A stretch of 52,500 nt of DNA. Source: Neocallimastix lanati (nom. inval.) (Eukaryota > Neocallimastigomycota > Neocallimastigomycetes > Neocallimastigales > Neocallimastigaceae). This document shows positions 8,242 through 40,003 of this stretch, piece after piece. A program made the position numbers and the translations under genes. Position 1 is the first letter of the stretch; each line of letters begins with the position of its first letter. The stretch is taken from contig JACVTC010000254.1 in NCBI GenBank assembly GCA_016946835.1, forward strand, positions 1 to 52,500, written 5' to 3'. Under the pieces are notes generated by a model. The model had not been told where the DNA came from and searched no databases. It worked only from the letters and a program-made list of their open reading frames with translations.

Positions 8242-8358
8242 CCTATACCGTAGCGTTTTGTACCGTACGGAAATGCAGTATTTCACGTGAAAGTATAGGT
8301 TATCCGAATGTAGCTCTAGCGAATAAGGAACTCTTGGTCACCGAAGGCCTCGAGGTTC
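8242..8358 (+). ncRNA. Structured leader RNA motif (element 1 version)
   Basis: Predicted fold by eye: an outer helix CCTATAC/GTATAGG (8242-8248/8293-8299) encloses two hairpins (CGTA/TACG at 8249-8252/8266-8269 and the palindrome TTTCACGTGAAA at 8281-8292). A linker with GCGAATAAGGA (8319-8329) follows, and then a hairpin with the 10-nt loop TCACCGAAGG (8338-8347) on a stem running from GAAC to GTTC (8328-8337/8348-8358). The same order, linker and loop occur in element 3 at 39872-40003 on different stem sequences. The role is unknown; packaging, dimerization or translation control are possible for a retrotransposon leader. Confidence 0.6.
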
Positions 8359-8445
8359 TTCAATATTATGTATTGAAGTAAAATTATATAGTTTTAATTT
8401 TAATAATGGGTTTTAACAGTTTGTTTATCCCAAACAAAATTGGTT

Positions 8446-8489
8446 ATAGCAGTTATGTTTTTTTATGCTTGATTATATAAAACTGCTAT
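8446..8489 (+). other. Leader stem-loop with 9-bp stem
   Basis: ATAGCAGTT (8446-8454) and AACTGCTAT (8481-8489) form a perfect 9-bp stem around a U-rich loop. Element 3 has a comparable stem with a U-rich loop at 40066-40137, also after the branched motif. Confidence 0.55.
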
Positions 8490-8689
8490 GGAAAACATAA
8501 AATATTTTTTTTTATGTTTTAATGGATCACTTTTGCCGGTTTTTGAATGTTGTAAGGCATAAGAAGGTGATATTGAATTTTAATTAAAATAATACTAAAT
8601 ATTGTATTTATGCAGAAGTTTATAATAAAGGATAAGTTTATAATAATATTTTGTTAATCATTTTAACTTAATTTCCAAGTACGTAGTTG

Positions 8690-8758
8690 ACCGTTACTGG
8701 TAGGCTGTAACATTAGACCTACACCTCAGCCCTTTGGTTGATAAACCAAATGAACGGT
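8690..8758 (+). other. Predicted three-way RNA junction before gag
   Basis: An outer stem ACCGTT/AACGGT (8690-8695/8753-8758) encloses GTAGG/CCTAC (8700-8704/8718-8722) and TTTGGTT/AACCAAA (8733-8739/8744-8750). It lies about 140 nt before the gag start codon, in a patch with clearly more G and C than the rest of the leader. Confidence 0.55.
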
Positions 8759-8898
8759 AACACGGAAAGGAAGAAATTAAAGTGTATTCTATAAAATATT
8801 TATTAATCAAAATCCTTATTATAATTCTTAATTTTGTGTAATAAAAATGTCCATTTTGTTAACTCTATCCTATTTTTATCTATACTAAAGGCACAAAA

Positions 8899-11800
8899 AT
8901 GGATTTCAATAGTAATAAACAAGCAATTTCCTCAAGTGAAGTTAATAATTCCTATCTCCATGATGAAAATGCATCCAAACTTATTACTGCAATTGCTGAC
9001 TTCATTCCTGCTTTCTTTTCTCCTAATGGTGTCCTCCAAAAGGAAAATGAAAGCAATAAACTAAATATCTTAGAAATTTTAATTCAAAGTGAAGATTTCT
9101 TTAAGGAGCATCCAAATTCTTTTCAAAAGGATGAACTAAAAAGTTCTTTTGTTATTAATAAACTTACTGGTACCGCCAGAAAATGGGGTCTTTCTCTTTT
9201 AACTGATGGTACTCTAAAGAACCTTGAATTTAGTAAGTTTAAGAAGCTCTTACTGGATAACTTTGATATTGGGAATGAAAGGAAGCAAAAATATGTCATC
9301 ATGGAAAAGTTATGGAAATTGAAACAACTTCAACTAGGAAATGTTGCTGAATATACTATTGAATTTCGGAGATTGGCTGGACGTTTAGGATGGCCCGACG
9401 AAGTTTTAATCGATATAATCGGTAAGGGTCTACTTGACAAAGTCCGCGAAGAGTTTGATAAACTCGAAAAGCCATCTACTCTTCTTGAAGCTACCAATAT
9501 TATTATTGGAATTGATAAGAAGTGTTTTTTGGAAAGACGTCTACGCCACAATCAAAAAAATAAATTTAATGGAAAAATGTCGTTTCATAGGAAGAGAAAC
9601 GATTTATTAAAATCAGAAAAGAATTCTAAACATTCTCATTTCAGAAAAAATAAGTCTAAAAACGACATACTTTCAGCAAATTACACCCCGAATATTAAAA
9701 CAACAATCACAACTACCTTCTACCTTGATATTAATGGAAGAAATATTAAGGCAAATCTATTAATTGATTCGGGTTCTGCCAGAAGTTTTATTTGTAAAAA
9801 CTTCGCAAATTCTAATAAATTACCTGTGTTAGGACTCAATTCCCAAATCAACATCCAACTTCCTAATGGGAAAAGTATGAATATCAGACAAACTACTAAG
9901 CCCCTTAAATTAAAATTTATGGATCATAAGGAAACTTTTGAATTCTGCATTGCTAATCTATCTCTTCAGGGCATTAATGGTATTCTTGGAAGGGATTGGT
10001 TATCCATTCACAATCCTTTCATCGATTATAAAAATAATAGAATCTACTTCCTTGGTAGATACTGTGGCTCACATTGCCCATCCTCCAAAAGTAATAAGTT
10101 TTTTAATCAAAATAAAAATATTACTGCTTCAATGTTGGAGAATTCAGAAGAAGATTCAGTATTACCAAATTCGGCTTTTGATACAGATATCTCAGATTAT
10201 GATTTATGTGCTGCAATGATTGATTCAGAAGAAGTAAACACTGACGTTCAGGGAAAAGAAGAGATTATTAATAAATACTATTCGGATCTTAAAATAGTAT
10301 TTGAAAAGAAACAAGCTGAGAACTTACCACCTCATCGTGACTATGATATTGCTATTGAGCTTTTTCCTGGTGGACAACTTTATTTTGGTCCAATATACTC
10401 TCTTACTGTACAAGAACTGAAAGCTTTAAAGGATTATATTAAGGAAAACTTAAAAAAGAAATTCATTAGGAAGTCAAAATCACCAGCAGGTGCTCCTATA
10501 TTATTTGTAATGAAACGCGATGGTACCCTTAGAGTCTGTGTAGATTATCACCGGTTAAATGCTATCACAATCCGTAATAGCTACCCAATTCCAAGAATAA
10601 ATGACTTGATTGAATCCTTTCAAGGAGCTAAGATATTTACTCGTCTTGACCTTAGATCTGCTTATAACCTAATCAGAGATAAAGAAGGTCACGAATATCT
10701 TACTGCTTTTAGAACCCCTTTAGGACATTTCGAATATCTCGTTATGCCTTTTGGTCTTCGAAATGCCCCTTCGGTTTTTCAACGTTTTGTACAAGATATC
10801 TTCAGTGATATCATTGGTTCTTTCATGCAAGTCTATCTGGACGACATCATTATTTACTCTAACAACGAAGAAGAACATATTAAACATGTTAGGATCGTTC
10901 TTCAACTTCTCATCAACAATGGATTATATGCTAAATTAGAGAAATGTGACTTCCATGTTACTAAAACCACTTTCTTAGGCTTCACTGTTTCTGTAGATGG
11001 TCTCACTATGGATAAGGATAAGGTAAAATCTGTTCTGGATTGGCCTATTCCGAAGAATCAAAAGGAATTACAAAGTTTTCTAGGCTTATGTAATTTCTAT
11101 AGAAAGTTTATCAATAATTTTGCCAAAAATATGGAACCTCTTCGTCGACTTTTAAGGAAAAATACTACATTTAATTGGGATGAATCAGCAAATGAAGCTT
11201 TTAGTAAATTGAAAGAATCTTTTAAAGCTGATGAAGTGCTCATTTTTCCTAATCCAGAGAAAGAATTCATCGTTGAAACAGATGCTAGCGACTTTGCTGT
11301 CGGTTGCATACTTTCTCAGGTTAGTGACACTGATAACTTATTGCATCCCGTAGCCTTCCATTCTAGATCCCTTAATAAAGCAGAAGTCAATTATACTATA
11401 TATGATAAAGAACTTCTTGCTATAATTACTGCGTTTGAAACTTGGAGGCATCATTTAGAAGGCGCAAAATTTCCTGTTCAAGTAATAACAGACCACAAGA
11501 ACTTATTGTATTTTAAGAAACCCCAACATTTAAATCAAAGACAAATTCGTTGGAGTCTCTTTTTATCAAAGTTTGACTATAGGATTGCATTCAGATCAGG
11601 CGCTAAAAGTGGCAAACCAGATGCTCTTTCAAGACGCCCAGATTTTAAATCTGACTCTTCATCTGAATCACAACCTGTAATTAACAATAATGCTTTCTGT
11701 TGTGCTATAAATGACAATATTAGTAGTCTTATTGAAGCACAGAAAGCTGATAATTATTGTAAAAATATCCTCTTAAAAATAAGGGATAAGTCAAACAACA

Positions 11801-12942
11801 TCAAAAGTTCTTTATTTTCCTTCGTCGATGGCGTACTTCACTTTCAAAAGCGTATTATTATTCCTTCCAGTCTCAGGGCTAGACTTTTAAAGTCTTTCCA
11901 TGATGCACCCACTAGTGGCCATCAGGGGGTAGATAGAACCTTTGAAAAACTCAGAAGGAACTACTGGTGGCCTAATATGAAAAAAGATATTTCAAATTAT
12001 GTGGCTTCTTGTGATGTTTGTTGTAGAAATAAAATCCGTCCTCATAAACCTTATGGTAAACTAATACCACTTCCTACTCCTACAAAACCCTGGGAAGTTA
12101 TTGGCGTCGATTTTATTGTTTCATTGCCTTCTTCACAAGATTGCACTTGTATCATGGTTGTTTCTGATCATTTAACCAAAATGATTCATTTAGTACCCTG
12201 CTCCGATGTTCCCTCTTCCGACTTAACTGCCAAGCTCTTACTTTTCCAAGTCTTTAAGTATCATGGTTTTCCTAAAGTGATTGTGTCTGATCATGGTTCC
12301 CAATTCTCTTCTCAATTTTGGACTTCGTTGTGCGATGCTATTCGTGCTAAACCAAGACTTGCTACTGCTCACCACCAACAATCCAATGGTCAGGTTGAAC
12401 GGGCTAATGCTGTAATAGAACAATATCTTCGCTGCTATTGTTCTTCTGCTCAAAACGAATGGTGTTTCTACCTCCCTTTATGTGAAATGTCCTACAACAA
12501 CTCCATTCACAAATCAATAGCTCAAACTCCTTTTCATGCTAACTATGGATTTGACCCAAATTGTGTTATTGATTCACCACCGATTCTGCTAAAAGATAGT
12601 GCTTCTGTTCTTACAAGGGATTGGTCTTCACATTTCAATGCCCTTCGTCAACATTTAGTTAAAGCCAAAGAAGATTTTAAGAAATATGCTGACAATAAAA
12701 AATCTGTAGGACCTGACTTTAAGGTAAATGATTTGGTTATGCTTAGAAGATACTACTTTACGAATGAACCCTCTAGAAAATTATCCACTCAATATCTTGG
12801 ACCTTTTAAAATCATCGAGAAAAGGGAAAGAATGAATTACCGTTTGGAACTTCCAGAGAACTTATATCTCCATCCGGTATTTCATATCTCACAATTGGAA
12901 CCATATACTAAAAGAAATGAAGACTTAATGGAAACATCATAA
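8899..12942 (+). CDS. Gag-Pol polyprotein of element 1
   Basis: A single frame of 1347 residues that starts at an ATG after 'gcacaaaa'. It encodes a gag domain (about residues 50-215), a retropepsin-like protease with IDSGSA (catalytic D290), a reverse transcriptase with YLDD (D648, D649), RNase H (D795 region) and an integrase. The integrase has an HHCC zinc finger (H1001, H1008, C1038, C1041), a DD35E core (D1071, D1131, E1167) and a C-terminal GPF-type motif near residues 1290-1330. There is no chromodomain. The gag part has no CCHC knuckle; a strongly basic K/R/H stretch at about residues 213-258 sits where a knuckle would be. Gag and Pol share one frame, as in Tf1-type elements, so their ratio must be set after translation. 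All catalytic residues seen are intact. Confidence 0.96.
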   Translation: MDFNSNKQAISSSEVNNSYLHDENASKLITAIADFIPAFFSPNGVLQKENESNKLNILEILIQSEDFFKEHPNSFQKDELKSSFVINKLTGTARKWGLSLLTDGTLKNLEFSKFKKLLLDNFDIGNERKQKYVIMEKLWKLKQLQLGNVAEYTIEFRRLAGRLGWPDEVLIDIIGKGLLDKVREEFDKLEKPSTLLEATNIIIGIDKKCFLERRLRHNQKNKFNGKMSFHRKRNDLLKSEKNSKHSHFRKNKSKNDILSANYTPNIKTTITTTFYLDINGRNIKANLLIDSGSARSFICKNFANSNKLPVLGLNSQINIQLPNGKSMNIRQTTKPLKLKFMDHKETFEFCIANLSLQGINGILGRDWLSIHNPFIDYKNNRIYFLGRYCGSHCPSSKSNKFFNQNKNITASMLENSEEDSVLPNSAFDTDISDYDLCAAMIDSEEVNTDVQGKEEIINKYYSDLKIVFEKKQAENLPPHRDYDIAIELFPGGQLYFGPIYSLTVQELKALKDYIKENLKKKFIRKSKSPAGAPILFVMKRDGTLRVCVDYHRLNAITIRNSYPIPRINDLIESFQGAKIFTRLDLRSAYNLIRDKEGHEYLTAFRTPLGHFEYLVMPFGLRNAPSVFQRFVQDIFSDIIGSFMQVYLDDIIIYSNNEEEHIKHVRIVLQLLINNGLYAKLEKCDFHVTKTTFLGFTVSVDGLTMDKDKVKSVLDWPIPKNQKELQSFLGLCNFYRKFINNFAKNMEPLRRLLRKNTTFNWDESANEAFSKLKESFKADEVLIFPNPEKEFIVETDASDFAVGCILSQVSDTDNLLHPVAFHSRSLNKAEVNYTIYDKELLAIITAFETWRHHLEGAKFPVQVITDHKNLLYFKKPQHLNQRQIRWSLFLSKFDYRIAFRSGAKSGKPDALSRRPDFKSDSSSESQPVINNNAFCCAINDNISSLIEAQKADNYCKNILLKIRDKSNNIKSSLFSFVDGVLHFQKRIIIPSSLRARLLKSFHDAPTSGHQGVDRTFEKLRRNYWWPNMKKDISNYVASCDVCCRNKIRPHKPYGKLIPLPTPTKPWEVIGVDFIVSLPSSQDCTCIMVVSDHLTKMIHLVPCSDVPSSDLTAKLLLFQVFKYHGFPKVIVSDHGSQFSSQFWTSLCDAIRAKPRLATAHHQQSNGQVERANAVIEQYLRCYCSSAQNEWCFYLPLCEMSYNNSIHKSIAQTPFHANYGFDPNCVIDSPPILLKDSASVLTRDWSSHFNALRQHLVKAKEDFKKYADNKKSVGPDFKVNDLVMLRRYYFTNEPSRKLSTQYLGPFKIIEKRERMNYRLELPENLYLHPVFHISQLEPYTKRNEDLMETS

Positions 12943-12955
12943 TTAAACAGAGCAA

Positions 12956-13817
12956 TGTAAGAATCTATAATTATTTGCTAACAAATAATTATATTTTCTT
13001 AGTTAAGTTATTATAACTATAACTTTATTTAATTACATATAATATTTATTAAATTTATTTAATTTAATTTTAAATATTCATTAATTTAACAAAATTTATT
13101 TAATTAATTTTAAATAATATATTTACAATATGATTAAATTCTCTACTGTAACTAATGTATTTTGTATTGTATTTTATTCTGTATTTTATAATGTATTCTG
13201 TATTTTATTAACTATTTAATTTTATATTTTTAATATAAGGATAAATTATATGATCGAAATATCTTTTATTATTTTATTCTTTTATTTTCGATCATTAGAT
13301 TGGAAAATCGGTTAATTAAGATTTTTTCCAATTACTTTTTAGAAGTAATCGGTTTTACTTAATTAATGCGATGATCGATATGGATAGAATATCGATCGAA
13401 AACTTATCTAGGTTTTTCTATCTAATCTTTTCCTAGATAAGAGATTTGTTAAGATTAGAAAACCCTTTCTTATTTAACCTTATTTTCATAAAAAAATATA
13501 AATAAGGCTCTTGAGTTCTCTTTGAGAAATCAAGAGTTATTATTATAAAAAACATAGTTATAATAGTAACATTTTTATATTTTTAACTTTAATAAATTAA
13601 TAAAAATATTTTATTCAAAAACATATTTTTAAAATCAATTTATACAAACAATTCTTCTCTTACATTTTGTGTTATTATTATAATTAATTTTATAATAAAC
13701 TCTACATTAAAGGTAAAAAAAAAATTTATTTTATTTTATTTTCTCAACTTAATGAATTAGTTGTTAAGTTGTAGTTAATAATTCTATTTTGAGTTAGTTC
13801 TTAATAGAATTATTACA
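12956..13817 (+). repeat. Element 1 3' LTR
   Basis: Repeat of 6736-7597 with the same length and no difference noticed. The polypurine tract is the short AAACAGAGCAA directly before it (12945-12955), similar to the AAACAGAGGGGCA of element 2. The coding frame stops 13 bp upstream. Confidence 0.97.
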
Positions 13818-15118: not shown

Positions 15119-15129
15119 TTTATGTGACT

Positions 15130-15201
15130 GGGGATATAACTCAGTGGTAGAGTGCTTGCTTTGCATGCAAGAAGCCTCGGGTTCGATCCCCGATATCTCC
15201 A
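15130..15201 (+). tRNA. tRNA-Ala (TGC anticodon)
   Basis: A 72-nt cloverleaf. The acceptor GGGGATA/TATCTCC contains the G3:U70 wobble pair that marks alanine tRNAs. The D arm is ACTC/GAGT, the anticodon stem CTTGC/GCAAG with loop TTTGCAT (anticodon TGC), and the T arm TCGGG/CCCGA with loop TTCGATC. There is no intron and no encoded CCA, as expected for a nuclear gene. Its 3' end plus CCA is complementary to the element 3 primer site at 17 of 18 positions, so this isoacceptor is the likely primer of element 3. Confidence 0.97.
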
Positions 15202-15216
15202 GTATAAAAATATTTA

Positions 15217-15223: not shown

Positions 15224-15229
15224 CTTTTA

Positions 15230-20320: not shown

Positions 20321-20492
20321 AATTAAGTGTTAAATTAACAAATTTAACTTTATAACTCTTTTATTTTAGTAATTTACTTATATCTATATAGTTATATTAT
20401 ATAGATATATCAACCTGATTCCTCGTTAAATTCAACCTGTTTACTTTTTAACAAATATTAATGATTAATAATTTAATTATAATTTTTTAATT

Positions 20493-21419
20493 TGTAAAAT
20501 AAAATAATAGCTTAGGTCGGTGTGGACAGACTATTTTATTTTACACAATTTATTTTATATTAACACTATAATTAATTATTAACTAAAACACTAAAACTAA
20601 AAAACTAATTTAATTTTTTGTTTCATAAAAAAAATCCTTTTATTGATATTTCTTATTTGTTGAATTTAACTGTTCTAAAATCAACAATCACTTAACTGGG
20701 TACCGTAGGGTCCTTTACCGGAAAGCCTACTAGCAGTTAAGATTTTAAAATAAAATTTAAAATAAAATTTGTTTTATAAAAAAATAACTATTCTAATAAT
20801 AGTTATAATACTAATTATTAAAATATAAAATTTATACTATTCTAAACTATACTAAACTATACTATTTTAAAACTATACTATTTTCTATACTATTTTCCAA
20901 CTATCGTTCAATAGTTGAAAATTAACTCTTTTTATATTTTTTGAAAATTAAAATTTAAATTGAATAGATTGTAATAAACTAGCTAAAATATTATTATATA
21001 TTTGTAATTACATTTAATAATAAATTACATGAATTTTTATGAGTTATTTTAATATAAAAACTATTTAAAACTATCTAATATTTCTAAAAATAAATAAACA
21101 AAACGGCAAGTTTTTGTAAACAAACGGAAAAGGCAATTTTTCTTTGATTATTTTAATTTAACTAATTTATGACTAATTATTTTTAATTTACAAGTTTCAT
21201 GACTAATTATTTTTAATTTACAAAGTTTCATGATTCAAAGTGAGTAATAATGATGTAAATTCTCCAAATAATTTAGTCATACATTTTTGAGAAAATTAAT
21301 TAAATTAATAATTTGGAATACATTTAAATTTATATTAAAAATTTGGAAAACATTTTTATCCACAATATTTTACATTACATTACATTTAAATACGTATTCA
21401 AATTATTAAATATTTTACA
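20493..21419 (-). repeat. Element 2 LTR a (3' LTR of the array)
   Basis: A 927-bp LTR, TGTAAAATAAAATA...TATTTTACA on the plus strand. The polypurine tract AAACAGAGGGGCA (element strand) abuts its right edge at 21420-21432. Inside are a 14-bp inverted repeat at its left end (20493-20506/20532-20545), CTTAACTG/CAGTTAAG near 20692-20742, and a direct repeat of 'atgactaattatttttaat' near 21168-21235. Confidence 0.97.
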
Positions 21420-26169: not shown

Positions 26170-27096
26170 TGTAAAATAAAATAATAGCTTAGGTCGGTGT
26201 GGACAGACTATTTTATTTTACACAATTTATTTTATATTAACACTATAATTAATTATTAACTAAAACACTAAAACTAAAAAACTAATTTAATTTTTTGTTT
26301 CATAAAAAAAATCCTTTTATTGATATTTCTTATTTGTTGAATTTAACTGTTCTAAAATCAACAATCACTTAACTGGGTACCGTAGGGTCCTTTACCGGAA
26401 AGCCTACTAGCAGTTAAGATTTTAAAATAAAATTTAAAATAAAATTTGTTTTATAAAAAAATAACTATTCTAATAATAGTTATAATACTAATTATTAAAA
26501 TATAAAATTTATACTATTCTAAACTATACTAAACTATACTATTTTAAAACTATACTATTTTCTATACTATTTTCCAACTATCGTTCAATAGTTGAAAATT
26601 AACTCTTTTTATATTTTTTGAAAATTAAAATTTAAATTGAATAGATTGTAATAAACTAGCTAAAATATTATTATATATTTGTAATTACATTTAATAATAA
26701 ATTACATGAATTTTTATGAGTTATTTTAATATAAAAACTATTTAAAACTATCTAATATTTCTAAAAATAAATAAACAAAACGGCAAGTTTTTGTAAACAA
26801 ACGGAAAAGGCAATTTTTCTTTGATTATTTTAATTTAACTAATTTATGACTAATTATTTTTAATTTACAAGTTTCATGACTAATTATTTTTAATTTACAA
26901 AGTTTCATGATTCAAAGTGAGTAATAATGATGTAAATTCTCCAAATAATTTAGTCATACATTTTTGAGAAAATTAATTAAATTAATAATTTGGAATACAT
27001 TTAAATTTATATTAAAAATTTGGAAAACATTTTTATCCACAATATTTTACATTACATTACATTTAAATACGTATTCAAATTATTAAATATTTTACA
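26170..27096 (-). repeat. Element 2 LTR b (shared by copies 1 and 2)
   Basis: Serves as 5' LTR for copy 1 and 3' LTR for copy 2. Same 927 bp as LTR a, exactly 5677 bp later. Confidence 0.97.
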
Positions 27097-27129
27097 TGCC
27101 CCTCTGTTTAAGTCGAGCCCCTGAGCGAC

Positions 27130-30100: not shown

Positions 30101-31698
30101 TTATAATCACATTTAATAACACTTTTATCTTTATTTTCATTTTTTAAAACATAACAGAAAGCATAATTTTCAAATTTTCCTTTATTTAATTCTTTTCTTT
30201 TAATACATTTTTCTTTTTTAACTAAAGCTTTTTTCATAATAGCCTTTATATTACGTGATTTTTTACTACATAATTTATTTTTAATATCGACTAATTTTTT
30301 AACATCATTATTATCTAAACTATCTAATACATTATTATAATTATTAATAATTTCTCTAGCTAATTGTATCTTACTTCGGCGGATTTCATCTTTTTTCTTC
30401 TTTTCTTCAGTTGTTCTTCTCATAATATCTTCAGCGGTGGCACAACAATTTCTCTTGCAGTATTGGGAACTGAATCTGATATTACCTTTATCAAATTCAA
30501 TTGTTGGGCAATGCTTCTTCAACCATGGATTTCCTAAAATAACCGAAATTCCTTTTGGTAAACTATAAATGTAAAATTGAATGGTTTCGATATGTTGACC
30601 CATGACCATAGTTAATGGAATGGTTTCATAACGAATTGTTCCATTTCCGTTAAATCCGATAACGTTTTTCTCATGGCGGATTCGTTGTACTGGGATCTGG
30701 TATTTATCGGCGGTAGCTCTATCCATAATATTAAGATCTGAGCCAGTATCTAGAATTGCGGACATAATAAAACCATTTTTGTACTTAAAAACAACATTGT
30801 AAGTGTGGGCTAAACTTTTCTCACTCAATTTAATCTGTAAGATCTTTTCTCTTCTTCTAATTTTGTCCTTTTGCTTGGGACAGTTTTCCTTTAAGTGGCT
30901 TGTGCTCTTACATATAAAACACTTCTTCGGTTTGTTTGACCTCTTTGGTGAAGACTCCCTGTAATTTTGGCTACTTCGGTAATTATTTTGGTAACGACTT
31001 GATCCTAAATCCCTACGAAAAGGTCTAATTCTTCTTTGATCTATATCCATTGGGTCATTTCCGTTAACACGACGATCTTCTTCAGCATTAGCAGCTACAA
31101 CATTAATTAGTTCATTAATTCTTCTAATTCTAGGATAAATTAGTTTGGTTCTTTCTTTTTCTCTTGTTGGTAAACCCTCAATGAAAAAATGGATTTTAGC
31201 TTCGTCATTAAATGATGAATCTCTGGCTATTTTCTCGAACTGATTGCAGTATTCGGCTATTGTTCTAAATTGTTGGCTACGTATCTTGGTAAGTCGGCTG
31301 TTCGCGACATCTGAACTCGCACAGGATTTGTAACGTTGTTGCAAAGCGTCAATAAAATTCTCGTAATTTTCCAATAGTGGACTTTCTTCTTTAACTAGAT
31401 CAGCAAACCATTCAGCAGCGTTTCCCTCCAAATAACTACTTATAATATCAATCTTGAATTCGTCATCAGCAGCAGCTTCTTCGTCTAAATTGTACTTAAA
31501 ATATCGGTTGATTTGACCAAGGAAGGCTGGTAGTTCGTTTCTTCTTCCGGAGAATGCTTTTGGTTTCGGAATGAGGCGTGCCCTGGTATTGACGTTATTA
31601 CCAACCTCATTTTCTATTTCCATGGAGCTGGCTTCAGAGGCTGCGTCAAAGTCTCCCCTAGCTCCTGGATGTTGATTGTTGACATTTATGTAATTCAT
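27130..31698 (-). CDS. Gag-Pol with chromodomain, element 2 copy 2
   Basis: Encodes the same 1522-residue protein as copy 1, with no residue difference seen, including all catalytic residues of protease, reverse transcriptase and integrase and the chromodomain. It lies between LTR b and LTR c. Transcription from LTR c would stop in LTR b, so this inner copy could be expressed as a normal unit-length RNA; read-through would give multi-unit RNA. Perfect identity between neighbours points to a recent duplication or to an assembly artefact. Confidence 0.95.
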   Translation of the reverse strand: MNYINVNNQHPGARGDFDAASEASSMEIENEVGNNVNTRARLIPKPKAFSGRRNELPAFLGQINRYFKYNLDEEAAADDEFKIDIISSYLEGNAAEWFADLVKEESPLLENYENFIDALQQRYKSCASSDVANSRLTKIRSQQFRTIAEYCNQFEKIARDSSFNDEAKIHFFIEGLPTREKERTKLIYPRIRRINELINVVAANAEEDRRVNGNDPMDIDQRRIRPFRRDLGSSRYQNNYRSSQNYRESSPKRSNKPKKCFICKSTSHLKENCPKQKDKIRRREKILQIKLSEKSLAHTYNVVFKYKNGFIMSAILDTGSDLNIMDRATADKYQIPVQRIRHEKNVIGFNGNGTIRYETIPLTMVMGQHIETIQFYIYSLPKGISVILGNPWLKKHCPTIEFDKGNIRFSSQYCKRNCCATAEDIMRRTTEEKKKKDEIRRSKIQLAREIINNYNNVLDSLDNNDVKKLVDIKNKLCSKKSRNIKAIMKKALVKKEKCIKRKELNKGKFENYAFCYVLKNENKDKSVIKCDYNNESVKENKSLERIPKQYEKFKNVFDEQECNELPPHRPYDCKIRLKDDVDLFYGPLYPLTEEEREALKEYIKENLEKGFIRPSTSPAGAPILFVRKKDGSLRLCVDYRRLNENTIRDSYPLPLITELFDRLREAKYFTKLDLKSAYNLVRIREGDEYKTAFRTRYGHFEYLVMPFGLKNAPATFQHFINDVLGEYLDEFAFAYIDDILIYSETLEEHRTHVKKILKKLQESGLYAKLSKCEFEVQKTTFLGHIISDKGISMDPDKVKSILEWPVPTTVKEVQSFVGLCNYYRRFIPNFAKIAKPLHNLTRKDVKYEWTEECSVAFETLKKLFTKEPILVHADPDLPFIVETDASNFAIGAVLSQRQKYTNALHPICYYSRGLTKSEKNYPIYDKELLAVKCALQEWRHYLEGAKHQFTIYTDHKNLTFPRKPELLSQRQIRWNLFLSRFDYKIQYRPGKEGGKPDAFSRRPDYENQEIEDEKETSACLTIQEATEDLCLVAIQGNLKDELIKEIKDDEVIQELIKIKKGESTSNNKYKNKMKDFTIDEEGLLLYKGLIFVPKKMRNIIIAIHHDNPVQGHFGILKTKEIISRNFVWFKMTSDIVKYIASCKTCAQVKDDRHRPYGLLQPLPTPKRPWSSVSMDFITDLPKSRDKTVIMVVVDRLTKMAHFIPFRSIPTAQIAADVFFREVFRLHGLPEDITSDRGSQFTSEFWQRLCSLLDINHNLSSAHHPQTDGQTERVNGILEQFLRCYINKRKNNWIDILPYAEFAYNNTLHQSINQSPFFANFGFNPKFNPVIPADSRRTSTIDHVEQIRKNMQFLKKNLEKAKERYKRYADHLRLVGPKLKVGDKVWLKRPDLLPKGPSKLTNRKLGPFKIIEKTGPVSYKLELPDTIKCHNVFHISNLEPYNEREFDESSASTNTRITSIATDTEGKEPLKIVAAKVVNNKPFYFILWKGLPATECTWLSEEEISDPQLVQEFNRTNRVPSRL

Positions 31699-31835
31699 CT
31701 TATTATTATTATTTATTAAACTATAAATTAAACTATAAAGTATTACTAAATCCACTTTTTAATTATTATTTCAAAAAAAATTTTTATACTATTACTAGTC
31801 TATCCTACACAAAGGTAAACTATACTAATCTAACG

Positions 31836-31846
31836 AGTTGGAAAAT
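31836..31846 (-). other. Element 2 copy 2 primer-binding site (self-primed type)
   Basis: Same 11-nt site as in copy 1, adjacent to LTR c and complementary to 32246-32256 in that LTR. Confidence 0.72.
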
Positions 31847-32773
31847 TGTAAAATAAAATAATAGCTTAGGTCGGTGTGGACAGACTATTTTATTTTACAC
31901 AATTTATTTTATATTAACACTATAATTAATTATTAACTAAAACACTAAAACTAAAAAACTAATTTAATTTTTTGTTTCATAAAAAAAATCCTTTTATTGA
32001 TATTTCTTATTTGTTGAATTTAACTGTTCTAAAATCAACAATCACTTAACTGGGTACCGTAGGGTCCTTTACCGGAAAGCCTACTAGCAGTTAAGATTTT
32101 AAAATAAAATTTAAAATAAAATTTGTTTTATAAAAAAATAACTATTCTAATAATAGTTATAATACTAATTATTAAAATATAAAATTTATACTATTCTAAA
32201 CTATACTAAACTATACTATTTTAAAACTATACTATTTTCTATACTATTTTCCAACTATCGTTCAATAGTTGAAAATTAACTCTTTTTATATTTTTTGAAA
32301 ATTAAAATTTAAATTGAATAGATTGTAATAAACTAGCTAAAATATTATTATATATTTGTAATTACATTTAATAATAAATTACATGAATTTTTATGAGTTA
32401 TTTTAATATAAAAACTATTTAAAACTATCTAATATTTCTAAAAATAAATAAACAAAACGGCAAGTTTTTGTAAACAAACGGAAAAGGCAATTTTTCTTTG
32501 ATTATTTTAATTTAACTAATTTATGACTAATTATTTTTAATTTACAAGTTTCATGACTAATTATTTTTAATTTACAAAGTTTCATGATTCAAAGTGAGTA
32601 ATAATGATGTAAATTCTCCAAATAATTTAGTCATACATTTTTGAGAAAATTAATTAAATTAATAATTTGGAATACATTTAAATTTATATTAAAAATTTGG
32701 AAAACATTTTTATCCACAATATTTTACATTACATTACATTTAAATACGTATTCAAATTATTAAATATTTTACA
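31847..32773 (-). repeat. Element 2 LTR c (shared by copies 2 and 3)
   Basis: 927 bp, identical in sequence and spacing to the other LTRs of the array. Confidence 0.97.
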
Positions 32774-32806
32774 TGCCCCTCTGTTTAAGTCGAGCCCCTG
32801 AGCGAC

Positions 32807-35800
32807 TTATAATCTCGAAGGAACTCTATTAGTTCTATTGAACTCTTGAACTAATTGAGGATCGGAGATTTCTTCTTCAGACAACCAAGTACATTCAGTA
32901 GCTGGAAGTCCTTTCCATAATATAAAGTAAAAAGGTTTATTGTTAACAACTTTAGCGGCAACAATCTTCAAAGGTTCCTTTCCTTCAGTATCAGTAGCGA
33001 TCGAAGTAATTCGAGTATTAGTACTTGCACTTGATTCATCAAATTCTCTTTCATTGTAAGGTTCTAGGTTTGAAATATGGAAAACATTATGACATTTAAT
33101 AGTATCAGGCAATTCTAATTTATAAGAAACAGGGCCTGTTTTTTCAATAATTTTAAAAGGACCGAGTTTTCTGTTAGTCAATTTAGAAGGACCTTTTGGA
33201 AGTAAGTCTGGACGCTTTAACCAAACTTTATCACCTACTTTTAATTTTGGTCCTACAAGTCTTAAGTGATCTGCATATCTCTTATATCTTTCCTTAGCTT
33301 TTTCTAAATTTTTCTTGAGGAATTGCATGTTTTTCCTTATTTGTTCAACATGGTCAATGGTACTTGTTCTTCTGCTATCAGCAGGTATAACTGGGTTAAA
33401 CTTAGGATTAAAACCAAAATTAGCAAAAAATGGGCTTTGATTAATTGATTGATGTAACGTGTTGTTATAAGCAAATTCAGCATAAGGTAAAATATCTATC
33501 CAATTATTTTTTCTTTTGTTGATATAACATCTTAAGAATTGTTCTAAGATTCCATTTACTCTTTCAGTTTGTCCATCGGTTTGGGGGTGATGTGCACTTG
33601 ATAAGTTATGATTAATATCTAATAAACTACAAAGTCTTTGCCAGAATTCAGAGGTGAATTGAGATCCTCTATCAGAAGTAATATCTTCTGGTAATCCGTG
33701 TAGACGAAAAACTTCTCTAAAAAATACATCAGCAGCGATTTGAGCAGTAGGTATACTTCTAAATGGAATAAAGTGAGCCATCTTTGTTAATCTATCAACT
33801 ACGACCATTATAACTGTTTTGTCTCTTGACTTAGGTAAATCAGTTATAAAATCCATTGAGACTGAGGACCATGGTCTTTTTGGAGTAGGAAGAGGTTGAA
33901 GTAATCCATAAGGACGGTGGCGATCATCTTTTACTTGAGCACATGTTTTGCATGATGCGATATATTTAACAATATCGGAAGTCATCTTAAACCAAACAAA
34001 ATTTCTACTTATAATTTCTTTGGTTTTGAGAATACCAAAATGACCTTGAACTGGATTATCATGATGAATAGCAATGATAATATTTCTCATCTTCTTTGGA
34101 ACGAAAATTAAACCTTTATATAATAATAAACCTTCTTCGTCAATAGTAAAGTCTTTCATTTTATTTTTATATTTATTATTAGAAGTAGATTCTCCTTTTT
34201 TGATCTTGATTAATTCTTGTATGACTTCATCATCTTTAATTTCTTTTATCAATTCATCTTTTAAGTTCCCTTGAATTGCAACTAAACATAAATCTTCTGT
34301 AGCTTCTTGTATTGTAAGACAAGCTGAAGTTTCTTTTTCATCTTCTATTTCTTGATTTTCATAATCTGGTCTTCTCGAAAAAGCATCTGGTTTTCCACCT
34401 TCTTTTCCTGGTCTATATTGTATTTTGTAATCAAATCGAGATAAGAATAAGTTCCATCTTATTTGACGTTGAGATAACAACTCAGGTTTACGTGGAAAAG
34501 TTAAATTTTTATGATCGGTATAAATTGTAAATTGATGCTTAGCCCCTTCTAAGTAATGTCTCCATTCTTGTAACGCACACTTGACAGCTAATAATTCCTT
34601 GTCATATATTGGATAATTCTTTTCAGATTTTGTTAAACCTCTTGAATAATAACAAATTGGATGTAATGCGTTTGTATATTTTTGTCTTTGAGATAACACA
34701 GCACCGATTGCAAAGTTACTAGCATCTGTTTCTACTATAAATGGTAAATCCGGATCTGCATGAACAAGTATTGGTTCTTTTGTAAAGAGTTTCTTTAAAG
34801 TTTCGAATGCGACAGAACATTCTTCAGTCCATTCATATTTAACATCTTTTCTTGTTAAGTTGTGTAACGGCTTAGCAATTTTAGCAAAGTTTGGGATGAA
34901 TCTTCTGTAATAATTACATAAGCCTACGAAAGATTGTACTTCCTTCACGGTAGTTGGTACTGGCCATTCTAAAATCGATTTAACTTTGTCTGGATCCATA
35001 GAAATTCCTTTATCCGAAATAATATGTCCTAAAAAAGTTGTTTTTTGAACTTCAAATTCACATTTACTTAATTTTGCATAAAGACCACTTTCTTGTAATT
35101 TCTTAAGTATTTTCTTAACATGTGTACGGTGTTCTTCTAATGTCTCAGAATAAATAAGTATATCATCGATATAGGCAAAAGCAAATTCATCTAAGTATTC
35201 TCCTAAAACGTCATTAATAAAGTGTTGGAAAGTTGCTGGAGCATTCTTCAAACCAAATGGCATAACAAGATATTCGAAATGACCATATCTTGTTCGAAAT
35301 GCTGTTTTATATTCATCACCTTCACGTATTCTTACCAGGTTATAAGCTGATTTTAAATCTAACTTAGTAAAATACTTAGCTTCTCTCAATCTGTCAAAAA
35401 GCTCGGTGATTAAAGGGAGTGGATAGGAATCCCTTATAGTATTTTCATTAAGTCTTCGATAATCGACACAAAGTCTTAAACTTCCATCCTTTTTTCTAAC
35501 GAATAGAATTGGAGCACCAGCAGGAGATGTTGAAGGTCTAATGAAGCCTTTTTCTAAATTTTCTTTGATATATTCTTTTAAAGCTTCACGTTCTTCTTCC
35601 GTTAATGGATATAATGGTCCATAAAATAAGTCTACATCATCCTTTAATCTAATTTTACAGTCGTATGGACGATGTGGTGGTAATTCGTTACACTCTTGTT
35701 CATCAAACACATTTTTAAATTTCTCATATTGTTTTGGTATTCTTTCCAAACTTTTATTTTCTTTAACACTTTCATTATTATAATCACATTTAATAACACT

Positions 35801-37375
35801 TTTATCTTTATTTTCATTTTTTAAAACATAACAGAAAGCATAATTTTCAAATTTTCCTTTATTTAATTCTTTTCTTTTAATACATTTTTCTTTTTTAACT
35901 AAAGCTTTTTTCATAATAGCCTTTATATTACGTGATTTTTTACTACATAATTTATTTTTAATATCGACTAATTTTTTAACATCATTATTATCTAAACTAT
36001 CTAATACATTATTATAATTATTAATAATTTCTCTAGCTAATTGTATCTTACTTCGGCGGATTTCATCTTTTTTCTTCTTTTCTTCAGTTGTTCTTCTCAT
36101 AATATCTTCAGCGGTGGCACAACAATTTCTCTTGCAGTATTGGGAACTGAATCTGATATTACCTTTATCAAATTCAATTGTTGGGCAATGCTTCTTCAAC
36201 CATGGATTTCCTAAAATAACCGAAATTCCTTTTGGTAAACTATAAATGTAAAATTGAATGGTTTCGATATGTTGACCCATGACCATAGTTAATGGAATGG
36301 TTTCATAACGAATTGTTCCATTTCCGTTAAATCCGATAACGTTTTTCTCATGGCGGATTCGTTGTACTGGGATCTGGTATTTATCGGCGGTAGCTCTATC
36401 CATAATATTAAGATCTGAGCCAGTATCTAGAATTGCGGACATAATAAAACCATTTTTGTACTTAAAAACAACATTGTAAGTGTGGGCTAAACTTTTCTCA
36501 CTCAATTTAATCTGTAAGATCTTTTCTCTTCTTCTAATTTTGTCCTTTTGCTTGGGACAGTTTTCCTTTAAGTGGCTTGTGCTCTTACATATAAAACACT
36601 TCTTCGGTTTGTTTGACCTCTTTGGTGAAGACTCCCTGTAATTTTGGCTACTTCGGTAATTATTTTGGTAACGACTTGATCCTAAATCCCTACGAAAAGG
36701 TCTAATTCTTCTTTGATCTATATCCATTGGGTCATTTCCGTTAACACGACGATCTTCTTCAGCATTAGCAGCTACAACATTAATTAGTTCATTAATTCTT
36801 CTAATTCTAGGATAAATTAGTTTGGTTCTTTCTTTTTCTCTTGTTGGTAAACCCTCAATGAAAAAATGGATTTTAGCTTCGTCATTAAATGATGAATCTC
36901 TGGCTATTTTCTCGAACTGATTGCAGTATTCGGCTATTGTTCTAAATTGTTGGCTACGTATCTTGGTAAGTCGGCTGTTCGCGACATCTGAACTCGCACA
37001 GGATTTGTAACGTTGTTGCAAAGCGTCAATAAAATTCTCGTAATTTTCCAATAGTGGACTTTCTTCTTTAACTAGATCAGCAAACCATTCAGCAGCGTTT
37101 CCCTCCAAATAACTACTTATAATATCAATCTTGAATTCGTCATCAGCAGCAGCTTCTTCGTCTAAATTGTACTTAAAATATCGGTTGATTTGACCAAGGA
37201 AGGCTGGTAGTTCGTTTCTTCTTCCGGAGAATGCTTTTGGTTTCGGAATGAGGCGTGCCCTGGTATTGACGTTATTACCAACCTCATTTTCTATTTCCAT
37301 GGAGCTGGCTTCAGAGGCTGCGTCAAAGTCTCCCCTAGCTCCTGGATGTTGATTGTTGACATTTATGTAATTCAT
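32807..37375 (-). CDS. Gag-Pol with chromodomain, element 2 copy 3
   Basis: Third identical 1522-residue frame, nearest the outer 5' LTR and the tRNA locus. It has the same domain order: gag, CCHC knuckle, protease, reverse transcriptase, RNase H, integrase, chromodomain. About 560 nt separate the predicted start of transcription from the ATG, most of it LTR sequence with predicted stems, so the leader is far shorter and differently built than those of elements 1 and 3. Confidence 0.95.
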   Translation of the reverse strand: MNYINVNNQHPGARGDFDAASEASSMEIENEVGNNVNTRARLIPKPKAFSGRRNELPAFLGQINRYFKYNLDEEAAADDEFKIDIISSYLEGNAAEWFADLVKEESPLLENYENFIDALQQRYKSCASSDVANSRLTKIRSQQFRTIAEYCNQFEKIARDSSFNDEAKIHFFIEGLPTREKERTKLIYPRIRRINELINVVAANAEEDRRVNGNDPMDIDQRRIRPFRRDLGSSRYQNNYRSSQNYRESSPKRSNKPKKCFICKSTSHLKENCPKQKDKIRRREKILQIKLSEKSLAHTYNVVFKYKNGFIMSAILDTGSDLNIMDRATADKYQIPVQRIRHEKNVIGFNGNGTIRYETIPLTMVMGQHIETIQFYIYSLPKGISVILGNPWLKKHCPTIEFDKGNIRFSSQYCKRNCCATAEDIMRRTTEEKKKKDEIRRSKIQLAREIINNYNNVLDSLDNNDVKKLVDIKNKLCSKKSRNIKAIMKKALVKKEKCIKRKELNKGKFENYAFCYVLKNENKDKSVIKCDYNNESVKENKSLERIPKQYEKFKNVFDEQECNELPPHRPYDCKIRLKDDVDLFYGPLYPLTEEEREALKEYIKENLEKGFIRPSTSPAGAPILFVRKKDGSLRLCVDYRRLNENTIRDSYPLPLITELFDRLREAKYFTKLDLKSAYNLVRIREGDEYKTAFRTRYGHFEYLVMPFGLKNAPATFQHFINDVLGEYLDEFAFAYIDDILIYSETLEEHRTHVKKILKKLQESGLYAKLSKCEFEVQKTTFLGHIISDKGISMDPDKVKSILEWPVPTTVKEVQSFVGLCNYYRRFIPNFAKIAKPLHNLTRKDVKYEWTEECSVAFETLKKLFTKEPILVHADPDLPFIVETDASNFAIGAVLSQRQKYTNALHPICYYSRGLTKSEKNYPIYDKELLAVKCALQEWRHYLEGAKHQFTIYTDHKNLTFPRKPELLSQRQIRWNLFLSRFDYKIQYRPGKEGGKPDAFSRRPDYENQEIEDEKETSACLTIQEATEDLCLVAIQGNLKDELIKEIKDDEVIQELIKIKKGESTSNNKYKNKMKDFTIDEEGLLLYKGLIFVPKKMRNIIIAIHHDNPVQGHFGILKTKEIISRNFVWFKMTSDIVKYIASCKTCAQVKDDRHRPYGLLQPLPTPKRPWSSVSMDFITDLPKSRDKTVIMVVVDRLTKMAHFIPFRSIPTAQIAADVFFREVFRLHGLPEDITSDRGSQFTSEFWQRLCSLLDINHNLSSAHHPQTDGQTERVNGILEQFLRCYINKRKNNWIDILPYAEFAYNNTLHQSINQSPFFANFGFNPKFNPVIPADSRRTSTIDHVEQIRKNMQFLKKNLEKAKERYKRYADHLRLVGPKLKVGDKVWLKRPDLLPKGPSKLTNRKLGPFKIIEKTGPVSYKLELPDTIKCHNVFHISNLEPYNEREFDESSASTNTRITSIATDTEGKEPLKIVAAKVVNNKPFYFILWKGLPATECTWLSEEEISDPQLVQEFNRTNRVPSRL

Positions 37376-37512
37376 CTTATTATTATTATTTATTAAACTA
37401 TAAATTAAACTATAAAGTATTACTAAATCCACTTTTTAATTATTATTTCAAAAAAAATTTTTATACTATTACTAGTCTATCCTACACAAAGGTAAACTAT
37501 ACTAATCTAACG

Positions 37513-37523
37513 AGTTGGAAAAT
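37513..37523 (-). other. Element 2 copy 3 primer-binding site (self-primed type)
   Basis: Same 11-nt site adjacent to LTR d, complementary to 37923-37933 of that LTR. Confidence 0.72.
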
Positions 37524-38450
37524 TGTAAAATAAAATAATAGCTTAGGTCGGTGTGGACAGACTATTTTATTTTACACAATTTATTTTATATTAACACTAT
37601 AATTAATTATTAACTAAAACACTAAAACTAAAAAACTAATTTAATTTTTTGTTTCATAAAAAAAATCCTTTTATTGATATTTCTTATTTGTTGAATTTAA
37701 CTGTTCTAAAATCAACAATCACTTAACTGGGTACCGTAGGGTCCTTTACCGGAAAGCCTACTAGCAGTTAAGATTTTAAAATAAAATTTAAAATAAAATT
37801 TGTTTTATAAAAAAATAACTATTCTAATAATAGTTATAATACTAATTATTAAAATATAAAATTTATACTATTCTAAACTATACTAAACTATACTATTTTA
37901 AAACTATACTATTTTCTATACTATTTTCCAACTATCGTTCAATAGTTGAAAATTAACTCTTTTTATATTTTTTGAAAATTAAAATTTAAATTGAATAGAT
38001 TGTAATAAACTAGCTAAAATATTATTATATATTTGTAATTACATTTAATAATAAATTACATGAATTTTTATGAGTTATTTTAATATAAAAACTATTTAAA
38101 ACTATCTAATATTTCTAAAAATAAATAAACAAAACGGCAAGTTTTTGTAAACAAACGGAAAAGGCAATTTTTCTTTGATTATTTTAATTTAACTAATTTA
38201 TGACTAATTATTTTTAATTTACAAGTTTCATGACTAATTATTTTTAATTTACAAAGTTTCATGATTCAAAGTGAGTAATAATGATGTAAATTCTCCAAAT
38301 AATTTAGTCATACATTTTTGAGAAAATTAATTAAATTAATAATTTGGAATACATTTAAATTTATATTAAAAATTTGGAAAACATTTTTATCCACAATATT
38401 TTACATTACATTACATTTAAATACGTATTCAAATTATTAAATATTTTACA
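37524..38450 (-). repeat. Element 2 LTR d (outer 5' LTR of the array)
   Basis: The 927-bp LTR that drives copy 3. Its right edge meets the taatt target duplication (38451-38455). Confidence 0.97.
37923..37967 (-). promoter_or_regulatory. Element 2 TATA box and predicted start/self-primer (outer LTR)
   Basis: On the minus strand TATAAAAA starts at 37967. The self-primer AGTTGGAAAAT starts at 37933, 34 bp downstream. The primer is the 3' arm of an imperfect palindrome (ATTTTCAACTAT/ATAGTTGGAAAAT, one extra G). The same arrangement repeats 5677 bp apart in the other three LTRs. Confidence 0.7.
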
Positions 38451-38479
38451 TAATTAAATTATTACAAAAAAATGTAGAA

Positions 38480-38594: not shown

Positions 38595-38677
38595 TGCCGG
38601 AAGCGAGATTCGAACTCGCGCTTCTTTCGAAACCGCATCTTGAGTGCGGCGCCTTAGACCAACTCGGCCATCCCGGC
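38595..38677 (-). tRNA. tRNA-Leu (CAA anticodon)
   Basis: An 83-nt type II tRNA. The acceptor is GCCGGGA/TTCCGGC with one G:U pair. The anticodon stem is CCGCA/TGCGG with loop CTCAAGA (anticodon CAA). It has a long variable arm (from TTTCGAAAGAAGC) and a T loop TTCGAAT. No intron, no encoded CCA, discriminator A. Element 3 begins 16 bp upstream of its mature 5' end, which is about where Pol III starts. Confidence 0.96.
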
Positions 38678-38692
38678 TTCTTGTTACGAAAA

Positions 38693-39179
38693 TGATAAGA
38701 ATGTACTAAATAATGCATTCTTAATTAAATCTACGATTTATTTCTAATACATTATGTGTACATTATTATTTTTGTACTTTAATAAATTTTTAAATTCAAA
38801 GATTAAAAATTAGATCAAAAATTATATTAAACTTTATAATTTTTATATTAAATCTTATATTAATAGTAATATTTTTATATATTTAAAACTTATATTAACA
38901 ATATTAATAATAAATCTTATTTTTTTATTTTTATATTAATAATGAAAATTTGTATTAATAATATTTTTATATATTGATAATTAAAAATTTATATATTATA
39001 TTTTAACTTTTATTATAAAATTTTATATCGAAATGTTTTATTTTATATTGAAAAATATTTTATTTTATTAAAAACCTTTATATTAGAATAGTATTTTTAT
39101 TTTTATTTGAATATTTTAACAGATTGTAATAAAAATTTTAGCCAATTAAATAAATTCTTATTAGTAATATTTTAGATAG

Positions 39180-39224
<45 letters not shown>

Positions 39225-39563
39225 TATTAATATTATAAATGTATTTTATTTATATTGTTATAATTAAATTTTATATAATTGATTATAAAAATCAATTTAA
39301 ATTTAATAGTTTTTATATATAAAAAGAAAAATAATAATAAAATGTAATTTAGTGGCAAGAACAACTTTTATGCCTTGAAAAAAAAGTATAAATAGTTGTA
39401 AATTTTGCTACTAATTTTTAAATATCATCAAATAAAATAAAATAAAATAAAATAAAATAAAATAAAATAAAATAAAATAAATTTATAAATAAAAATAATA
39501 AATAAAAAAAATAAAATTTGTGTTTCTTACTTTATTTTTATTTAATTCTCTAAAACCTTAACA
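38693..39563 (+). repeat. Element 3 5' LTR
   Basis: TGATAAGAATG...CCTTAACA, repeated at 45998-46866. It contains a poly(A) run (39185-39220) and an AAAAT microsatellite (39430-39481). A long hairpin runs from TTAGTGGCAA to TTGCTACTAA (one G:U pair) around ACAACTTTTAT/ATAAATAGTTGT, which includes the TATA box. Confidence 0.96.
39387..39393 (+). promoter_or_regulatory. Element 3 TATA box
   Basis: TATAAAT in the 5' LTR, 170 bp before the LTR end. The 3' LTR has the same box at 46690. It lies in one arm of the long inverted repeat of this LTR. Confidence 0.65.
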
Positions 39564-39569
39564 TTTATA

Positions 39570-39587
39570 TGGTGAAGATATCGGGGA
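39570..39587 (+). other. Element 3 primer-binding site for tRNA-Ala
   Basis: TGGTGAAGATATCGGGGA starts 6 bp after the LTR. The reverse complement of the 3' end of tRNA-Ala(TGC) at 15130-15201 plus CCA is TGGTGGAGATATCGGGGA, giving 17 of 18 matches with one difference at the sixth base. A second alanine isoacceptor could match fully. Confidence 0.85.
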
Positions 39588-39818
39588 ATTAAATAGAAAT
39601 AATAGTAAATAACATAGATTTTTTTTTAATTTTTTTTATTTTATATTGATAAACAAGTAAGTCGTTAATCCTTTGATTAACCTATGGCGCTTGTTTGATA
39701 TATATATAAAAAAAATTTTTTTTAAATAAGTAAAATTAAGATTCTAAAAAAACAAATTTTGTAAAATTATAACAAGGAGCGGATAGAGCTCATACACAGT
39801 GTATTCTCAGATAGCAAC

Positions 39819-39862
39819 AAATTAACTCTATTCATAGTAGGTTATTGAATAGTAGTTAATTT
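39819..39862 (+). other. Leader stem-loop, 16 bp with one bulge
   Basis: AAATTAACT then CTATTCA (39819-39834) pairs with TGAATAG, a bulged T, and AGTTAATTT (39846-39862). It lies 10 nt before the branched motif of this leader. Confidence 0.55.
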
Positions 39863-39871
39863 GGAGATTAA

Positions 39872-40003
39872 TTGGAAAGTAGACGAAGGTATTTGGTTAC
39901 CGACCCGGTAATAATAGTTCAGCCTTCAACGTTTCAACACACGAAGGTGCGGGTACTTTCCAAGCACTGGCGAATAAGGAGCTTACGTCACCGAAGGCGT
40001 AAG
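39872..40003 (+). ncRNA. Structured leader RNA motif (element 3 version)
   Basis: A perfect 10-bp outer helix TTGGAAAGTA/TACTTTCCAA (39872-39881/39954-39963) encloses two hairpins: TTACCG/CGGTAA (39897-39902/39906-39911) and CCTTC/GAAGG (39923-39927/39943-39947). The linker GCGAATAAGGA (39970-39980) and a hairpin CTTACG/CGTAAG (39982-39987/39998-40003) with loop TCACCGAAGG follow. Only the linker and loop are conserved in sequence with element 1 (8242-8358); all stems differ but pair. Confidence 0.62.

Follow-up and report, generated by a model that had tools for sequence, protein, structure and literature searches.

Three Ty3/gypsy elements lie within a stretch of 52,500 nucleotides (nt) of Neocallimastix lanati DNA (assembly GCA_016946835.1, contig JACVTC010000254.1, positions 1 to 52,500 of the forward strand), here called the window. 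The leaders of elements 1 and 3 contain the same linker, GCGAATAAGGA, followed by a hairpin with the same loop, TCACCGAAGG, as an earlier note on this DNA had stated. The question raised by the locus is whether the two leaders hold a conserved structured RNA and, if they do, what such an RNA could do. Judged by compensatory change, the module appears to be a conserved structured RNA element. It is read here, tentatively, as a signal for packaging.

Architecture and occurrence of the module

The full module is about 190-240 nt long; the linker and the loop hairpin (HP3) form its 3' part. Helix P1 closes a three-way junction and is followed by the linker and HP3; a 5' hairpin, HP1, is usually present. 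Copies of the module fall into families, of which D includes element 1 and C includes element 3. The predicted folds of families A, B, C, D and E have a common order: HP1, five unpaired bases (AUAUA, AUAAA or AUACA), P1, hairpin Pa, helix P2, linker and HP3. Pa follows the 5' arm of P1, and the 3' arm of the long P2 abuts the 3' arm of P1. The window contains the following parts; folds are minimum free energy (MFE) or centroid folds.

8150..8358, + strand: RNA module in the leader of element 1 (family D)
8150..8167, + strand: HP1 of element 1, GAAGGTA-ATAA-TACCTTC, in the MFE and centroid folds
8173..8179, + strand: 5' arm of P1 of element 1, TAGAGTT
8181..8200, + strand: hairpin Pa of element 1
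8205..8210, + strand: 5' arm of P2 of element 1, ACATTT, in the centroid fold and not the MFE fold
8306..8311, + strand: 3' arm of P2 of element 1, GAATGT, adjoining the 3' arm of P1, centroid fold only
8312..8318, + strand: 3' arm of P1 of element 1, AGCTCTA
8319..8329, + strand: linker GCGAATAAGGA of element 1
8330..8358, + strand: HP3 of element 1, with loop TCACCGAAGG at 8338-8347
39777..40003, + strand: RNA module in the leader of element 3 (family C)
39777..39791, + strand: HP1 of element 3, GAGC-GGATAGA-GCTC
39797..39802, + strand: 5' arm of P1 of element 3, CAGTGT
39805..39867, + strand: hairpin Pa of element 3, site of the four double changes between subtypes C1 and C2
39872..39881, + strand: 5' arm of P2 of element 3, previously taken as an outer helix
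39954..39963, + strand: 3' arm of P2 of element 3, abutting the 3' arm of P1
39964..39969, + strand: 3' arm of P1 of element 3, GCACTG
39970..39980, + strand: linker GCGAATAAGGA of element 3
39982..40003, + strand: HP3 of element 3, CTTACG-TCACCGAAGG-CGTAAG, with the loop at 39988-39997

The two HP3 stems differ in sequence and yet pair, as previously described. In element 3 the stem is CTTACG/CGTAAG; in element 1 it is of the GAAC..GTTC type (GAAC-TC..GG / CC..GA-GTTC), with mismatches and a bulge. The earlier note had placed an outer helix around two hairpins in both leaders, with the modules starting at 8242 and 39872. Element 3 does have such a helix, of 10 base pairs (bp; 39872-39881/39954-39963), but it is not a shared feature: the 7-bp helix of element 1 (8242-8248/8293-8299) contains a single, interrupted hairpin. 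The closing helix that both leaders have, P1, is located outside these (8173-8179/8312-8318 and 39797-39802/39964-39969), and the modules start near 8150 and 39777.

Predicted folding energy alone is suggestive. The z scores of the module are -2.1 in A, -1.6 in B, -2.6 in E, -4.6 in C1, -4.2 in C2 and -2.0 in D; of 300 shuffles, 11, 17, 3, 0, 0 and 12, respectively, fold at least as well. P1 of family B is found in the centroid fold only and not in the MFE fold, as is P2 of family D. Over the shorter spans first proposed the energy is weak (8242-8358, z -0.85; 39872-40005, z -2.09), so the case for the fold rests on comparison. The Pa loop AGTAGGTTA is common to B/E and C despite different Pa stems (window 39836; L063:2602).

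The linker-loop module has more genomic copies than chance would give. The pattern GCGAATAAGGANCT-N0-8-TCACCGAAGG has two matches in the window and none in 100 shuffles. In the whole assembly (199,045,447 bases, 762 contigs, 22% GC) it has 560 matches, 287 forward and 273 reverse, versus 0 for the reversed pattern; a looser linker-loop pattern has 568 versus 1 for the control. The loci in hand at that stage held 77 occurrences, with some places counted more than once: 13 in family A, 17 in B/E, 36 in C (including element 3) and 11 in D (including element 1). Families A to E were found by a pattern requiring linker and loop, and family G by a pattern requiring the loop. When the linker and only the last bases of the loop were required, the loop was changed in 3 of 96 B/E-type matches.

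Several contigs (L086; G000 C24, C26, C46, C47, C50) carry two module copies in opposite orientation, some 3 kb from each other; the L086 pair, the one that was read, is an A copy and a C copy, head to head. Fifty matches from outside this genome (44 viral-contig and six genome-contig stretches) were taken as chance. None of them pairs all six bases beside the 10-nt loop, six pair five of the six (L015, L028, L045, L120, L123, L124), and inspection by eye found the rest of the module in none of the 50. Three of these contigs (L120, L123, L124), from a Lachnospiraceae metagenome-assembled genome (SIG296), share a repeat with GCGAATAAGG and TCACCGAAGG; it too was taken as chance, as five of the six bases beside the loop pair but the remainder of the module is missing.

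Compensatory change between families

Covariation was scored on P1 and HP3 of seven sequences (A, B, C, D, F and two of G) from six families, with the inner domain removed; E was left out as a near copy of B. With six families only, arms placed by structure and shuffles that ignore relatedness, 95.2% of 105 cells pair (shuffled mean 80.2%), 8 of 15 pairs are changed on both sides (3.4), 16 cells have double changes (4.8) and covariation scores 0.511 (0.197). In 500 shuffles none of the four values was equalled, while the count of further pair types was equalled or exceeded in 17. Sliding the arms by 1 to 3 columns gives 27.6-47.1% pairing and at most one double-change pair. The rows of alignment A7 were cut and joined by the assumed structure. 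Subtypes C1 and C2 can be aligned without structural help, and between them 4 of 75 predicted pairs are changed on both sides, all in Pa.

A second hairpin, motif 3 (G-N-C GGUUUUU..GUUGURAG-N-C), lies downstream of the module. It was first found in A, B, E and D, and its pattern has 257 matches in the genome versus 0 for the control. A further piece, motif 2, is also present in element 1.

8526..8571, + strand: motif 3 of element 1; outer helix ATCACTT/AAGGTGAT, inner helix GCC/GGC, loop GGUUUUU..GUUGUAA
8690..8758, + strand: motif 2 of element 1, CTGGTAGG..CCTACACCTCAG inside an outer helix, structure by eye

Ten motif 3 loci were chosen for unusual spelling among the matches listed (the first hundred of 257). 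Five were of A, B or E type and five belonged to a new family, F, which carries the loop, although neither linker nor loop had been asked for. It retains HP1, P1 (CGTTGTT/AACAACG), P2 (AACTCGTTTA/TAAACGAGTT), HP3 and motif 3. A search with HTCACCGAAGGD, which holds the loop with other neighbours, gave 99 matches versus 33 for the control. Of 20 loci fetched from these, seven form the new family G and four are family F; nine were rejected as unrelated, seven of them inside open frames of about 266 codons. Family G retains P1, Pa, P2 and HP3. The earlier note had taken both linker and loop as conserved sequence. This is correct for the two window leaders, but the linker is changed to GTTAATGCG in F and to GAACAATAATGAA in G, so the loop is the only long stretch common to all seven families. 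The helices of F and D are largely unlike those of the other families.

Motif 3 is present in five of the seven families; neither the C leader nor the stretches of G that were read contained it. Its outer helix occurs as five distinct helices, each with 6/6 pairs (cross-family mean 3.15), with two double changes between B and E. P2 likewise has seven versions with own pairing of 6/6 and cross-family pairing of 2.55. Motif 2 (CTGGTAGG..CCTACA..TCAG) has 82 matches versus 1 for the control, in B and D sequence types; it lies upstream of the module in B (L063:2366-2452) and downstream in D. Mutual pairing was compared for five other constant pieces and nothing worth pursuing was seen; the longest matches were of 7 bases, both with the U-rich loop of motif 3.

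These comparisons support the view that P1, HP3, Pa (in C) and the outer helix of motif 3 have been kept by compensatory change. The stems are changed on both sides while one hairpin loop is unchanged, so the fold appears to be under selection. The proposal of a selected RNA of an unrecognised class is supported in this respect, as further copies with compensatory changes exist.

It should be said that several observations weigh against a conserved fold. The constancy of the loop is partly built in because the searches for A to E and G required it, and that of the linker because the search for A to E did. Own pairing of P2 and of motif 3 is partly a matter of choice because the arms were chosen from folds or by eye; the 6-bp P2 by itself would fall short of significance. 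P1 arms cross-pair well between families (mean 5.59/7) because several positions are constant. The B/E alignment alone has no double change in 75 pairs, and on it RNAalifold favours an alternative pairing of HP1 with the 3' arm of P1. HP3 of family D pairs 4/6 beside the loop. Single copies have broken pairs in HP3 (L053, L054) or P1 (L115), and L128, L131, L132 and L133 have changes in loop, linker or P1. Family G has no clear GC-rich HP1, G1 having only an AU-rich hairpin further upstream. P1 is in neither the MFE nor the centroid fold of G2 (L146, L151, L154), and in the MFE fold only in G3 (L150) and in L147 and L152 of F.

Carrier elements, module position and exchange of leaders

Elements 1 and 3 have the features of Ty3/gypsy carriers: long terminal repeats (LTRs), and reverse transcriptase (RT), RNase H and integrase in Ty3 order. 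Element 1 has one gag-pol open reading frame (ORF) and element 3 has two ORFs.

6734..7597, + strand: 5' LTR of element 1; the 3' copy (12954-13817) is 100% identical
7597..7609, + strand: self-priming site of element 1, complementary to LTR positions 7312-7324, Tf1 type
8899..12942, + strand: gag-pol of element 1, a single ORF
38693..39563, + strand: 5' LTR of element 3; the 3' copy (45998-46866) is 99.8% identical
39570..39587, + strand: primer-binding site of element 3; 12 nt are an exact complement to the 3' part of the tRNA-Ala at 15129-15202
41070..41981, + strand: ORF1 of element 3, from the first ATG
42164..45979, + strand: pol of element 3

The elements had been called unrelated. Their Pol proteins are only 32% identical over 830 amino acids, but both are Ty3/gypsy elements and the term is too strong. 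By Pol sequence, carriers of the module span two Ty3/gypsy groups with about 30% identity. Pol of F and G (one element each) is closest to that of element 3 (41-55%, versus 27-31% to element 1), and both have two ORFs. Element 2 consists of three tandem units on the minus strand (20489-38451, period 5,677 bases, at least 99.9% identical) with LTRs shared between units; its leader, from LTR to ORF, is only about 90 nt. The 5' LTR of element 3 starts about 15 nt upstream of the 5' end of a tRNA-Leu gene (window 38595-38693). A site just upstream of a tRNA gene is of the kind known for yeast Ty3.

The two elements do prime differently, as had been claimed: element 3 is tRNA-Ala-like and element 1 is of the self-complementary Tf1 type. 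Complementarity to the element's own LTR covers 13 nt in element 1 and 11 nt in family B. The priming sites are located elsewhere, so the module is not the primer site. It lies between primer site and gag in elements 1 and 3 and in family B, and also in A, where the primer site was placed by eye. In the loci of A, B, D, E, F and G read with their coding part it is upstream of gag or ORF1, and the distance to gag ranges from about 200 nt in B to about 1070 nt in C.

A leader has moved between lineages. Over 459 nt, from a point 12 nt upstream of HP1, B (L063) and E (L087) have leaders with 86% identity, compared with 33% between their Gag-protease regions and 51% between their integrase regions. 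The leaders had been suspected of simple homology by recent recombination. This is true for B/E, but elements 1 and 3 gave no blastn alignment covering the module (E up to 1e-3). Gag identity is about 64% between A and B, and 25-34% for E compared with D, A and B. Six query proteins were compared with the ORF1 regions of G and F: C ORF1 alone matched in G (29%), and in F there was no match.

No RVT match was obtained in the main ORF of A or of B. Their frames are open and encode Gag-protease-integrase/chromodomain (L061:2862-5303, L063:2985-5882), and the ratio of nonsynonymous to synonymous substitution rates between two copies each is 0.20 in A and 0.26 in B, with 0.23 in the element 1 family. 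As these frames lack the match and yet are open under low ratios, A and B probably depend on the RT of another element. E matches Pol of elements 1 and 2 over the RT region. A leader common to an RVT-less and an RT-bearing element is what a packaging signal would give. Gag and Pol of E are in overlapping frames (L087:1425-5740), suggesting a frameshift, unlike element 1. Resemblance to tRNA box A/B was seen by eye in the B LTR (L063:745-815) and upstream of the A leader (L061:383-455); in the loci of either family ARAGORN predicted no tRNA.

Possible roles and known systems

The favoured reading, held tentatively, is that the module is a cis-acting packaging signal in the full-length RNA. It would belong to a series of structured elements that lie after the primer site and before gag, and would act in cis on the full-length RNA during packaging into virus-like particles, possibly with dimerization. 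Recognition would be via the loop and the linker, with interchangeable stems as their support. With the same signal, families that are non-autonomous could use the particles of autonomous ones; if templates were switched in mixed particles, this would account for the movement of a leader between lineages. The reading is supported by a structure that appears to be under selection, by the position of the module, by its presence in RVT-less families and by the exchange of a leader. The depletion of AUGs from the start of the module to gag in A, B, C, E and G, consistent with ribosomes scanning the leader, also fits it. Ty3 packaging requires the untranslated regions or POL, and Ty1 packaging maps to the 5' end of the RNA, according to one account (PMC4974528). 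A wider proposal is that the module is a new RNA family, exchangeable among two deep Ty3/gypsy groups of gut fungi; its loop, the same in elements with very different Gags, would be recognised by a host component that all of them exploit, with motif 3 as a partner. This is doubtful.

Some points do not sit well with a packaging signal. The depletion of AUGs is not seen in element 1. Family B retains its own gag-like ORF and has no evident need for the signal of E. Element 2 gave no match to the linker-loop pattern in the window search; its Pol is closer to that of element 1 (48%) than is Pol of element 3, which means that not all relatives require the module. Carriers have strongly differing Gags, so that a near-constant loop fits a host partner at least as well.

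The last point leads to a somewhat unlikely alternative, in which the module is the binding site of a conserved host factor, for translation, nuclear export or RNA stability, exploited by all of the elements. Such a factor would explain a loop that is constant across strongly differing Gag and Pol better than diverging Gags would, and the widely varying distance between module and gag is consistent with it. However, retrotransposon genes lie downstream in every locus read with its coding part, which is few of the 560-odd copies. To our knowledge, no such host element has been described.

An internal ribosome entry site (IRES) or ribosome shunt element for gag is improbable. The leaders are long enough to suggest one: from the inferred RNA start they measure about 1.6 kb in D and 1.9 kb in B. 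However, AUGs are depleted in five of the six families tested, as scanning predicts. Between the start of the module and gag, A has 0 (9.3 in shuffled sequence), B 0 (3.5), E 0 (4.9), C 1 (14.8) and G 1 (4.4), and scanning through the leader is the simple reading of these counts. Before the module, A has 1 (5.5; the start of this stretch, 1285, was assumed), B 4 (11.9), C 2 (2.9) and D 1 (3.8); the B count, too, is as scanning predicts. Ribosomes landing at or before the module and then scanning would still be compatible with depletion. Family D, with 14 AUGs versus 12.4 in shuffled sequence from module to gag, handles its leader differently from the scanning families. Its ribosomes must bypass those AUGs, which favours entry or shunting. 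Family F has two AUGs ahead of ORF1 (a count only), one in the linker and one in motif 3, and these point the same way. The linkers of F and G (L126, L143) contain an AUG from which a short upstream frame would run through HP3.

That the module is a self-cleaving ribozyme of a new kind, or catalytic in another way, is very improbable. Constant unpaired bases within freely changing helices have the general look of a catalytic core, and the linker GCGAATAAGGA is reminiscent of the J4/2 strand of hepatitis delta virus (HDV). Against this, no Rfam ribozyme matches, the linker is altered in F and G, and a cut between primer site and gag would break the genomic RNA. An HDV-like fold was considered for the linker and rejected, as its nested pseudoknot was not seen (by eye only).

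That there is no selection on structure, the leaders being merely homologous and moved by recombination, is hardly credible: the B/E exchange, a linker and HP3 identical between A and C, the few independent families and the lack of double changes within B/E would suit it, but the double changes in 8 of 15 P1 and HP3 pairs, the four further ones in Pa of C and the largely different helices of F and D argue against it.

Rfam was searched with 4227 models at the gathering threshold. In the window, only two tRNA genes reached gathering score; no family did so in six loci from A, B, E, F and G. When scanned permissively, the two window leaders returned 3 and 7 matches (E 1.7 to 9.3), all below gathering. 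The earlier view that the module is no known ribozyme or riboswitch agrees with this. Literature searches brought up no recognised earlier description of the module, and the titles listed for the loop and linker strings, 10 of 46, were unrelated.

Self-cleaving ribozymes of retroelements include hammerheads in Penelope-like elements and retrozymes, and HDV-like ribozymes in R2. The module resembles them in being a structured RNA with constant unpaired bases in the untranslated region of a mobile element. It differs in its secondary structure, in its lack of an Rfam match, in its Ty3-type LTR carriers and in a linker that is not constant. With IRESs of retroviruses and retrotransposons it shares the long structured leader ahead of gag; the depletion of AUGs in five of the six families tested would set it apart.

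A packaging signal has its closest parallel in the Psi and dimerization initiation site (DIS) regions of retroviruses and of Ty1/Ty3. One account describes the cis signals for localisation and packaging of Ty3 RNA as not precisely defined even in yeast (PMC11381356). With its near-constant loop, replaceable stems and natural swap between lineages, the module is a defined target for probing, and RVT-less families carrying the same signal may serve as natural donor-helper pairs. Like Psi/DIS regions, it is a structured 5' leader region of the full-length RNA between primer site and gag, cis-acting by hypothesis, and shared with non-autonomous relatives. Unlike them, it is described here from sequence only, and it combines the same loop across deep lineages with a defined branched module and covarying helices.

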